Shown piece by piece: positions 1,901-21,686 of a stretch of 34,510 bases of DNA (positions are counted from its first letter, which is position 1; every line of letters starts with the position of its first letter). The notes beneath the pieces are model-generated. The model saw nothing but the letters and a program-made list of their open reading frames with translations. It was not told where the DNA came from and did not search any database. The DNA lies in IMG/VR virus record IMGVR_UViG_3300036770_000740, positions 1 through 34,510 of that record; one strand, given 5' to 3'. This stretch comes from a virus. The position numbers were made by a program, and so were the translations under genes.

Positions 1901-2102
1901 AAGCGGCGATTTTATCAAGGGCGACGCCGAGTTCCAGCGACATAAGCTGTTGCTTGAGCTTGATGAGCTGTTTTTGGAGTTCGGCGTTTTCGTTGACAAG
2001 AAGCCTGATGCGGTTCGCAAGATGCTGAGATAGTTCGCTAGCATCTGGTATCGCCTCAACGTGACCGACGAGTTCCATATCCGTCTTATTGGCATACATC
2101 AT
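1866..2102 (-). CDS. Small coiled-coil protein, unknown function
   Basis: A 78-aa protein starting MMYANKTDMELVGH. Residues about 25-55 (LANRIRLLVNENAELQKQLI onward) show heptad spacing of Leu/Ile with many Glu, Gln, Lys and Asn: a likely coiled coil. The ATG at 2102 overlaps the upstream stop (ATGATG/TGA arrangement), with a second in-frame ATG directly after it at 2099, so either may be used. Dimerising accessory protein is all that can be inferred. Confidence 0.6.
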   Translation of the reverse strand: MMYANKTDMELVGHVEAIPDASELSQHLANRIRLLVNENAELQKQLIKLKQQLMSLELGVALDKIAAYDDLVETERHR

Positions 2103-2638
2103 GCGGCCTTTCGGAGTTTGTCGATAGCGGGGCCACCCCAAAAGTAGGACGCCATCCCGACCAGATGCGCGTCGTGGGCGACTTCCTTGATATCGGCCTG
2201 TCGCATCAGGTCACCGGCGATATGTTTGAGCCACTCTAGCTTTTCCGATAGCTGTGGGTCATCCGGTGTGGTCAGATATCGGGCTAGCAAGGCATCGCAT
2301 AATCGGAGCTTGCCCAGCGGCGTTAATAAAGTTTCGCGCCACATCCTTGAATTAGAGTCTAGCGCGTACTGAAGCCGCGCTTCTTCGACGGCCTTTTGTT
2401 TATCGGTTTTGACAGGCGGTTCGGACGGGTCGCGTTTCTTCTTAAGGTCAAACAGGCCTTGCCATTGGTTGCTAATTGAATTGTCAACAACCTCGGCTTG
2501 GTCTTTGCCATATCGCGACAGTTTCAATGCCGCCGCCGCCATCGATGCTTCCTTGAGAGGCTTTTTGATAGCTTTTCGGTAAGCGACCCAGCGTTCCCAT
2601 GCGGCAATGTCTAGACCTTCGATGTTTTCAATGCTCAT
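2099..2638 (-). CDS. Putative phage replication-associated protein
   Basis: A 179-aa protein (start MSIENIEG at 2638). The N-terminal third, AAWERWVAYRKAIKKPLKEA followed by a SRYGKDQAEVVDNSISNQWQ stretch and GLF, resembles the C-terminal motif of phage replication initiator and helicase-loader proteins (W-x2-W-x2-YR ... K, later a conserved S-I-x-N-x-W-x-GLF). The rest is helical with no named motif. It may be a stand-alone replication accessory protein or hold the loader role in a genome where no other initiator, helicase or polymerase is seen. It overlaps the 59-aa gene upstream by 11 bp and the next gene by 4 bp. The role is an inference from one motif. Confidence 0.5.
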   Translation of the reverse strand: MSIENIEGLDIAAWERWVAYRKAIKKPLKEASMAAAALKLSRYGKDQAEVVDNSISNQWQGLFDLKKKRDPSEPPVKTDKQKAVEEARLQYALDSNSRMWRETLLTPLGKLRLCDALLARYLTTPDDPQLSEKLEWLKHIAGDLMRQADIKEVAHDAHLVGMASYFWGGPAIDKLRKAA

Positions 2639-2807
2639 GACCGCCCTCCAATCGCTTTTCAATCATTGCCATCGCTTGACTGACTTGTTCGTTTGTCAGG
2701 TTGAACCCGATTTCGCTGGCAAGGTCTAGCGCCTTTTGGGTTCGTTCGGGACTGTCTGCGGTGATGGAAAGCCAAAGTGCGGCTTCAAATGCTTCTATCT
2801 GTGTCAT
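2628..2807 (-). CDS. First leftward early gene, 59-aa unknown protein
   Basis: ATG at 2807 opens a 59-aa frame (MTQIEAFEAALWLSITADSP...) that ends at 2628, 11 bp inside the next gene. It has the clearest ribosome binding site in the control region: GGAGG four bases ahead of the ATG (minus-strand reading of 2812-2816). The product is helical and acidic in its first half; no family is recognised. Directly upstream are two palindromic sites (2828-2873), so this is the probable first gene of the leftward early transcript. Its ribosome binding site is the possible target of the RNA candidate described at 2981-3210. Confidence 0.6.
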   Translation of the reverse strand: MTQIEAFEAALWLSITADSPERTQKALDLASEIGFNLTNEQVSQAMAMIEKRLEGGHEH

Positions 2808-2827
2808 CGTTCCTCCGTTGAGTATTT

Positions 2828-2873
2828 TTACTCAGTAAGTTGAGTAATCTTCTATGTATATACACTGTGTATA
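2828..2873. promoter_or_regulatory. Two palindromes upstream of the leftward early operon
   Basis: An inverted repeat TTACTCA-N6-TGAGTAA occupies 2828-2847. A near-perfect odd-centred palindrome TATACAC-T-GTGTATA occupies 2859-2873. Both lie 20-66 bp ahead of the ATG at 2807 in an AT-rich island, as expected for repressor operators over a promoter. Their sequence differs from the GTTTAC half-sites at 3457-3518, so a second regulator may be involved. The exact promoter hexamers could not be fixed. Confidence 0.45.
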
Positions 2874-2980
2874 CAAACCCCTATGCTCGGAACCCAGAGA
2901 TAGACCCCCCTAACCCCCACAACATTTCTGCGTGAGAGGCCGAGGGGTAACTATGCCCGTATACCCGTCGGTTTAACCCG

Positions 2981-3210
2981 CCTTGGCAATTTAAGCAGCC
3001 CAAGGTCGTGACCTAAGCCAACCGGATTTGCACCGGCCCCACTGCCATCAGATTTGCGTACCTTGATGAGGGTACGGAAGAACATGACTTGACGCCCCGG
3101 CTTGAATAGCCGAGAATCGCCTTGTCTGTTCCTCCACGGACAACTCTACCCGCACTTCAGCTGCCGGTAAAGTCCTAAAGCCCCAAACCTGACGGAATGG
3201 GGCTTTTTTT
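2981..3210 (+). ncRNA. Candidate structured antisense RNA in the immunity region
   Basis: Between 2808 and 3244 there is no convincing gene. On the plus strand the stretch forms a series of hairpins: CCTTGG/CCAAGG (2981-2986, 3000-3005), CCGG/CCGG with a 7-nt loop (3022-3036), CGTACC/GGTACG (3057-3062, 3071-3076), CGGCT/AGCCG (3098-3112) and TTGTC/GACAA (3122-3126, 3139-3143), ending in a strong terminator (3177-3210). A longer-range pairing AAGCC/GGCTT (3015-3019, 3099-3103) could close the central part. The loop of the 3122-3143 hairpin reads GTTCCTCC, an exact complement of the GGAGGAAC ribosome binding site of the gene at 2628-2807. From memory, the segment around 3015-3060 recalls the C4 antisense RNA family of P1/P7-type immunity loci, but this was not checked. 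The 5' end and promoter are unknown. Confidence 0.4.
3177..3210 (+). terminator. Intrinsic terminator in the control region
   Basis: Stem AAAGCCCCA (3177-3185) pairs with TGGGGCTTT (3198-3206) around a 12-nt loop and is followed by T through 3210, giving seven consecutive T at 3204-3210. It is strongest for plus-strand transcription. On the minus strand it may also act weakly at the end of the repressor gene, whose stop is at 3245. Confidence 0.75.
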
Positions 3211-3244
3211 AACCTAAGGCGATTAGAGCGACTCAAAGCCACCC

Positions 3245-3448
3245 CTATACCTTCCCCTTGTCTTCGCCTGTAATCGGCTGTAATGGCTTCTCCGGCAGTT
3301 TTACGGCCCCTGCCTGTAACTGCCATACCCTAGATTCGGGAAGTTTGCCTGATTGCACCCAGTAAGTGACCGCCATACGGCTGACACCGAAGGCTTTGGC
3401 AAGGGCTGATTGGTTTCCGGCTTGTTTGATGAGTTGGTGTATGTCCAT
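3245..3448 (-). CDS. Small HTH repressor/Cro-like regulator
   Basis: A 67-aa protein starting MDIHQLIKQAGNQSALAKAF. Residues about 10-32 form a clear helix-turn-helix: helix 2 NQSALAKAFG, turn VSR, recognition helix MAVTYWVQSG. This is the Cro/YdaS class of phage regulators, which bind as dimers to operators in divergent promoter regions. It faces away from the rightward early genes with the half-site array directly ahead of its start, so autoregulation and control of the rightward promoter are likely. No Shine-Dalgarno is present ahead of the ATG at 3448 (the minus strand reads CTCCTCC there), which may mean a leaderless transcript. Longer upstream extensions of the frame are unlikely to be translated. 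Whether it acts as Cro or as the maintenance repressor cannot be decided; it has no C-terminal dimerisation domain. Confidence 0.75.
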   Translation of the reverse strand: MDIHQLIKQAGNQSALAKAFGVSRMAVTYWVQSGKLPESRVWQLQAGAVKLPEKPLQPITGEDKGKV

Positions 3449-3456
3449 GCGGAGGA

Positions 3457-3519
3457 GTTTACAAAAGTTAACAGTAAACATAAAGGGGGGTTTACATCCC
3501 TGATTGGAGAGTGTAAAGT
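3457..3519. promoter_or_regulatory. Operator array and divergent promoter
   Basis: Four half-sites lie between the repressor start and the first rightward gene: GTTTAC (3457-3462), GTAAAC (3474-3479), GTTTAC (3490-3495) and GTAAAG (3513-3518). They form two inverted pairs. A rightward promoter can be read inside them: -35 TTTACA (3491-3496), 17-bp spacer, -10 TAAAGT (3514-3519), placing the start near 3526 and 40 bases ahead of the first gene. Read leftward, the same segment gives TTTACA-N17-TAAACC, so divergent promoters may overlap. Half-sites on promoter elements are what repressor control of both directions needs. Confidence 0.55.
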
Positions 3520-3565
3520 TCTTCCACGGTATAGATAACCTCATCCACAGACAGGAGATACAACG

Positions 3566-3757
3566 ATGAAAAGCTACGAAGTTCATTTTAAGCCAGAAGG
3601 TCGAATTGCAGATTGGTATCAGTTCACGGTAATGGCCTCATCAATCACGCGGGCGGTCAATGCTGGAAAGCGTCAGCTTGAGGTAATCGTCGGACCGCGC
3701 GACGCGAAGTCTTATGCCGCTTTTTTGGTTCGCGAAATAACCAGTGAGGCGGCGTAA
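3566..3757 (+). CDS. First rightward early gene, 63-aa unknown protein
   Basis: MKSYEVHFKPEGRIADWYQF opens a 63-aa protein with alternating beta-type and helical segments (TVMASSITRAVNAGKRQLEV in the middle). A good ribosome binding site (AGGAGA at about 3553) precedes the ATG. No family is recognised. As the first gene behind the operator-controlled rightward promoter it may be a regulator or anti-host protein, but nothing in the sequence shows it. Confidence 0.6.
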   Translation: MKSYEVHFKPEGRIADWYQFTVMASSITRAVNAGKRQLEVIVGPRDAKSYAAFLVREITSEAA

Positions 3758-21593: not shown

Positions 21594-21616
21594 GACAACC
21601 TCTCTAGCTGTCTCTC

Positions 21617-21675
21617 AAAAAAATCTGCGGCAGGGCGGTGAGATACCGCCTTTTCGGGGGCTACCCTAGCCGCAG
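21617..21675 (-). terminator. Terminator/attenuator after the major capsid gene
   Basis: On the minus strand CTGCGGC (read from 21675-21669) pairs with GCCGCAG (21631-21625), enclosing an inner hairpin GGCGGT/ACCGCC (21650-21645, 21639-21634), followed by A and seven T (21623-21617). This is a convincing intrinsic terminator just after the capsid stop and before the DUF115-like gene. As the late genes beyond it must still be made, it probably works partially or is overridden by the Q-like antiterminator, giving more capsid than downstream products. Confidence 0.75.
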
Positions 21676-21686
21676 GCTATCAGTCA

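Follow-up and report, generated by a model that had tools for sequence, protein, structure and literature searches.

In the uncultivated phage analysed here (34,510 bases in IMG/VR, the whole of which is called the window), the interval between a cro-like gene and the replication genes appears, from comparison with about a hundred related phages, to be a conserved RNA control module. It is read here, with moderate confidence, as control of the replication operon by an antisense RNA and convergent promoters, similar to lambda pO/oop, with a new structured leader. A minus-strand promoter is predicted to start a structured leader RNA, which would continue into the genes for a 59-aa protein and an O-like protein. 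A plus-strand promoter, face to face with the first, would give an antisense RNA of about 86 nt and three hairpins, which would end at a terminator just short of cro (Table 1).

The antisense RNA is expected to lower the expression of the replication genes, and this may happen by three routes: collision of the two facing polymerases; full-length pairing with read-through messages that start at the cro promoter; and masking of the ribosome binding site (RBS) of the first gene past the leader by sequence in an sRNA hairpin, a route open to this phage and some of its relatives. Because there is a second, dedicated promoter opposite the antisense start, all three are possible. The production of the RNAs, the negative sign of the control and the relative weight of the three routes are what we infer from the sequences.

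To our knowledge, little is understood outside lambda of how the replication genes are limited in phages that lack a recognisable cI-like repressor where one is usually found. As neither RNA is in the Rfam library, the module looks like a new RNA-based control of replication genes. With its small size and its conservation in about a hundred loci, it lends itself to reporter assays of one part at a time. Two new families can be defined from the leader RNAs, given how well these are conserved, and matching pairs for loop-to-RBS tests already exist in several lineages.

Table 1. Features of the early region of the window, with two type A leader RNAs of relatives.
Feature	Position	Strand	Basis
Recombination operon (Sak-like annealing protein, YqaJ exonuclease, SSB, NinB)	from 3566	plus
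Cro-like repressor gene, 67 aa	3245..3448	minus	Pfam P22_Cro 7e-8, YdaS 5e-8; PHROGs transcriptional regulator
Antisense sRNA promoter, TTGACG-17-GAGAAT	3089..3117	plus	consensus scan; kept in 102/102 relatives
Predicted antisense sRNA, three hairpins, ~86 nt	3124..3210	plus	promoter-to-terminator distance; ends inferred
sRNA hairpin SL1, GUCUGU-UCCUCC-ACGGAC	3124..3141	plus	fold; comparison with L004
sRNA hairpin SL2, encoded within the minus-strand promoter spacer	3143..3173	plus	stem conservation
sRNA intrinsic terminator SL3, stem AAAGCCCCA/TGGGGCTTT and T tract	3177..3210	plus
Leader RNA promoter, TTTACC-17-TAGAGT	3143..3171	minus	same position in 99/102 loci
Type B structured leader RNA, ~260 nt	2876..3136	minus	profile match and covariation
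Leader 5' hairpin, GGAGGAACA paired with UGUUCUUCC	3076..3134	minus	fold
Type B RNA conserved core	2877..3073	minus	alignment A5, 16 sequences
RBS of the 2807 ORF, GGAGGAAC	2809..2816	minus	complementary to sRNA 3128-3135
59-aa ORF, first gene past the leader RNA	2628..2807	minus	relatives with 39-86% identity at the same place
O-like replication gene	2099..2638	minus	PHROG 678, replication initiation O-like, 9e-15
Q-like gene	1311-970	minus
Type A RNA examples	L004:4588-4801, L014:4739-4939		alignment A3

Gene Order and Relatives

The early region has a lambda-like layout, in which the cro-like gene, the 59-aa ORF, the O-like gene and the Q-like gene are all on the minus strand. There is no cI-like gene between cro and the plus-strand recombination operon, and the window proteins examined included no integrase. 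An earlier reading of the sequence (the first-pass annotation) had given the gene-free stretch as 230 bases and the 2807 ORF as the first leftward gene. The interval is in fact about 437 bases (2808-3244), and the ORF is the second gene, since cro precedes it on the same strand. Both strands of the interval fold better than shuffled sequences (z = -3.5 for plus, z = -6.5 for minus). Just upstream of the 2807 gene are two palindromes, TTACTCAGTAAGTTGAGTAA and TATACACTGTGTATA (2828-2847 and 2859-2873), which look like operator sites and were not seen in the relative L004.

Relatives were reached through the O-like protein, and comprise close ones (L004, L014) as well as distant ones. More than 430 contig stretches encode relatives of this protein, and the best 80 of 431 were analysed. 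The antisense module was scored in 102 related IMG/VR loci, 81 with a type A and 21 with a type B leader RNA, the two types of structured RNA of which one or the other occupies the spot between cro and the O-like gene. These loci are metagenomic contigs of shared ancestry, so that their counts are not independent events; for the tests of RBS complementarity they were clustered (42 clusters).

The interval from cro to the next gene has the same build in nearly all relatives: a hairpin, then a minus-sense promoter, a 5' hairpin and a core of about 200 nt that is conserved. Downstream of the RNA and on its strand, the O-like gene was present in 89 of 100 loci; the remaining 11 are cut off or almost so. 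Upstream, 87 of the 100 have a cro-like gene. It is through this comparison that the promoters, the terminator, the hairpins, the structured leader with its strand and the gene order are established. No similar DNA was found in phage and plasmid collections, and bacterial genomes gave only chance 17-mer matches.

The Antisense RNA

The plus-strand RNA of about 86 nt is probably real. Its promoter and terminator are found as a pair at the same place in all 102 related loci. TTGACA or TTGACG with a -10-like hexamer at 16-18 nt was present on the antisense strand in every locus, and the perfect TTGACA in 86. The best promoter score reached 9-10 of 12 in 99 loci compared with 5 of 102 shuffles, as judged by the sigma-70 consensus, from which that of the host may differ. 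The predicted sRNA is 71-90 nt long in the 102 loci (median 75), and its 3' end in the relatives is a hairpin just upstream of the sense promoter. The 10 nt that follow the SL3 stem contain on average 5.7 T in the plus direction and 1.1 in the other (99 loci), and the stem GCCCC/GGGGC of the window is GCCGC/GCGGC in L004. The hairpin at 3177-3207 was also considered as a terminator of cro in the minus direction, and was rejected for want of a T tract that way.

The first-pass annotation had described five hairpins and a strong plus-strand terminator at the end of the stretch, and had suggested an RNA made from the plus strand. The terminator was found as described, a hairpin followed by a T tract. 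The RNA itself is very probably real, because the one predicted at ~3124-3210 has UCCUCC as the loop of its first hairpin. It would span only about 86 nt of the stretch, however, and the remainder is a conserved structured RNA of the opposite strand.

The conserved terminator could serve only to insulate cro against antisense transcription. In an explanation by transcriptional interference alone, as proposed for lambda pO/pR, the firing of the promoter would be the control, the RNA would be functionless and the terminator would protect cro. We consider this rather unlikely, although several features agree with it: the predicted start sites of sRNA and leader overlap by a near-constant 12-14 nt in 97 of the 102 loci (about 13 nt in the window), which suggests a selected promoter geometry; the sequence of SL1 varies among relatives; and lambda pO acts in cis on pR (PMC3985674). 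By contrast, the SL2 stem points to a working RNA. A stem of at least 4 bp was found in 94% of 87 distinct sequences, compared with 30% of shuffles, and it is kept through 39 different stem sequences. The same is suggested by complements between sRNA and RBS that differ together in several lineages.

Complementarity to the Ribosome Binding Site

It had been proposed in the first-pass annotation that a hairpin loop of the plus-strand RNA could block the RBS of the 2807 ORF. The hairpin at 3122-3143 is present (TTGTC-TGTTCCTCCACG-GACAA). Within the 34.5-kb window, the 8-mer GTTCCTCC has exactly two copies, one at 2809-2816 and one at 3128-3135; the former lies opposite the RBS (GGAGGAAC-ATG), and the latter is the GUUCCUCC contained in SL1. 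On the window alone, this match is not significant, because the plus-strand 343-mer has 8 complementary 8-mers in 44 start regions against 6.6 expected from dinucleotide shuffles, and by duplex energy the 2807 gene comes second rather than first. A total of 8 is attained by 36% of the shuffles.

A different picture was obtained from the relatives. With the sRNA taken without its terminator, an exact complement of at least 8 nt to the start region of the first gene was found in 6 of 42 clusters, compared with 1% of mismatched pairs, and the mean length of the complement gave a permutation p of 0.017. When 900 nt downstream were scanned, only the 50-nt bin with the RBS showed an excess (6 against 0.67 expected); the bins outside it were at chance, and the total along all 900 nt was 21 against 19.9 expected. 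The cluster of the window and L004 should be discounted, since it prompted the question, and five remain.

Indirect support for pairing in trans also comes from several lineages in which the two sides of the pair differ together: GUUCCUCC/GGAGGAAC in the window, UUUCCUCC/GGAGGAAA in L004, UCCCCGUA/UACGGGGA in the L014 group and AUUCUCCC/GGGAGAAU in L107. Further pairs are GAUACCCC/GGGGUAUC in L270 and complements of 10 nt each in L059 and L021. The place of the complement within the sRNA varies from phage to phage. The complement is absent from L066, L096, L118, L119, L128, L129/L342 and most loci of the TTGACG type, and also from L341, which was added later with its 59-aa protein. A universal loop-to-RBS rule was therefore rejected. 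The pairing is a real possibility in some lineages, not a rule of the family.

C4 antisense RNA is transcribed on the same strand as its target gene and ahead of it. The first-pass annotation had likened the plus-strand RNA to the C4 RNA of P1/P7 (RF01695), and the likeness lies in the idea of a loop complementary to the RBS of an early phage gene; here such a complement is above chance across the relatives but absent from some lineages. A C4-type control in trans, in which the blocking of the GGAGGAAC RBS by the loop GUUCCUCC would be the main function, could draw on the 8-10-nt complements with lineage-specific sequences and on their frequency among the clusters. It is nevertheless unlikely: the complement is missing in L129/L342, L066, L128, L341 and most TTGACG-type loci, the match in the window is at chance level and the pairing is not universal. 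An Rfam search found no C4 match in the window, and none among the weak matches in 2750-3600. The promoter and terminator of the sRNA are on the plus strand and the presumed target operon is on the minus strand. The module is not filed as a C4 RNA because of the missing model match and the opposite strand.

The Structured Leader RNA

The leader RNA of the window belongs to type B, as indicated by a profile match and by helices with compensatory changes on the minus strand. Its 5' end was taken from the promoter and its 3' limit is where conservation ends. The promoter of the window is weak, at 8 of 12 by the sigma-70 consensus (that of the host may differ), and in the relatives it is usually TTGACG-17/18-TACGCT at a fixed distance. 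The 5' hairpin keeps its shape in L004 with a different sequence. A pattern taken from the core of the window found the locus L239, which was the first step to type B, and iterated profiles extended the type to 23 distinct loci, the window included. A profile built without the window matches it at 3073-2877 on the minus strand (nhmmer, E = 5.7e-39).

In alignment A5 (16 sequences), 87.9% of the cells are paired compared with 39-52% when the partners are slid, a control that flatters the structure because the structure came from A5 itself. The shuffles and the many pair types are unaffected by this derivation. Compensatory changes on both sides occur in 34 of the 67 base pairs; there were 113 such changes in A5 against 40 in shuffled alignments, and none of 500 shuffles attained any of the five measures used. 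Folding is also stronger for the RNA-sense strand (-90.1 kcal/mol) than for its complement (-71.0 kcal/mol).

In another explanation, the leader alone is real, as a riboregulator or a processed RNA of the replication operon, with GTCAA/TTGAC being a conserved motif of the leader that resembles a -35 box by chance. The strong support for a leader RNA on the minus strand and the GUCAA in the 5' hairpin beside an AA bulge would fit such an explanation. It is improbable, however, in view of the -10-like hexamer at 16-18 nt in all loci and of the plus-direction terminator at a fixed distance. That the core is conserved as a short protein (ORF 2951-3085, SGAGANPVGLGHDLGLLKLPRR, similar in L239) is very improbable and was rejected: L239 can be read in the same frame over about 25 codons with mostly third-position changes, but a conserved start codon or frame is missing from the other relatives, the indels and the compensatory changes in stems are as expected of an RNA, and the protein search gave no convincing match.

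Most relatives carry the type A RNA, of about 215 nt, which was found between cro and the O-like gene in at least 95 IMG/VR loci. Its core is marked by the motif GGGGAAACNACGCGCAG (alignment A3), and its covariation is strong, with 17 of 38 predicted pairs compensated on both sides. From inspection of A3, columns 43-47/63-67 and 51-55/153-157 are likely to form a pseudoknot. The window was rejected as a type A RNA, as GGGGAAACNACGCGCAG is absent from it within 3 mismatches and the type A profile has no hit. Type A has no Rfam match, and for the leader no match at the gathering score was obtained in the window or any member scanned, nor any in weak-match searches. No description of type A or B RNAs was found in the literature searched, coverage of which was incomplete.

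A short motif is repeated close to the 3' end in both types, and its two copies change in concert. In type B the copies are GGGCAUA/GAGCAUA and GGGCAG/GAGCAG (minus strand ~2876-2965 in the window), and in type A they are CAGUCAU/CAGUCAU, AAGGUCAU/AAGGUCAU and AAGGCUCA/AAGGCUCA. A search for the complement of the type A motif within the same phages gave only scattered chance hits.

It may tentatively be suggested, at somewhat less than even chances, that types A and B are two structured RNAs not previously described, possibly distant relatives, and part of a two-RNA replication switch found in a large group of uncultivated phages, in which a coevolving sRNA reads both leader and RBS, the repeated 3' motif of the leader being the recognition element for a partner.

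Comparison with Known Systems

The functionally closest system would be lambda pO/oop/tO. In lambda, pO is convergent to pR and makes the short oop RNA beside O; it lowers pR-driven transcription and affects replication (PMC3985674). What the two share is a short antisense RNA that lies between the cro region and O and ends at a terminator of its own, and a promoter convergent to transcription of the replication genes; in the window, the RNA, its terminator and its promoter are predicted. Lambda oop overlaps cII, whereas the sRNA of the window lies in non-coding DNA and overlaps no cII-like gene. There is no such gene between cro and the RNA, and hence no complementarity to a cII 3' end of the kind that characterises oop. 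Unlike in lambda, a second dedicated promoter stands opposite the antisense start, the overlap being 13 nt, and a new structured leader follows.

Short hairpin antisense RNAs opposed to the leader of a replication transcript are also the principle of ColE1 RNA I/RNA II and R1 CopA/CopT. The sRNA of the window is likewise short, made of hairpins and opposed to a replication leader, but it overlaps the leader from that leader's own promoter by only ~13 nt; full overlap exists only with read-through messages from the cro promoter. The CI RNA of phage P4, which is cut from the same strand, is similar in that it, too, is structured and belongs to a replication operon's leader. In contrast to P4, the complement of the repeated motif of the leader was not found in the relatives.

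Other Features of the Window

Two further observations were made away from the early region. An Rfam match to int-alpA RNA (21611-21676, minus strand, 53 bits, E = 1.6e-8) has an odd location just downstream of the major head gene. A minus-strand gene at 32627-33490 matches beta-glucosyl-HMC-alpha-glucosyltransferase (PHROG 842, 1.5e-72) and adjoins a ParB-like/methyltransferase-like gene; the glucosyltransferase-like gene hints at modified DNA in this phage.
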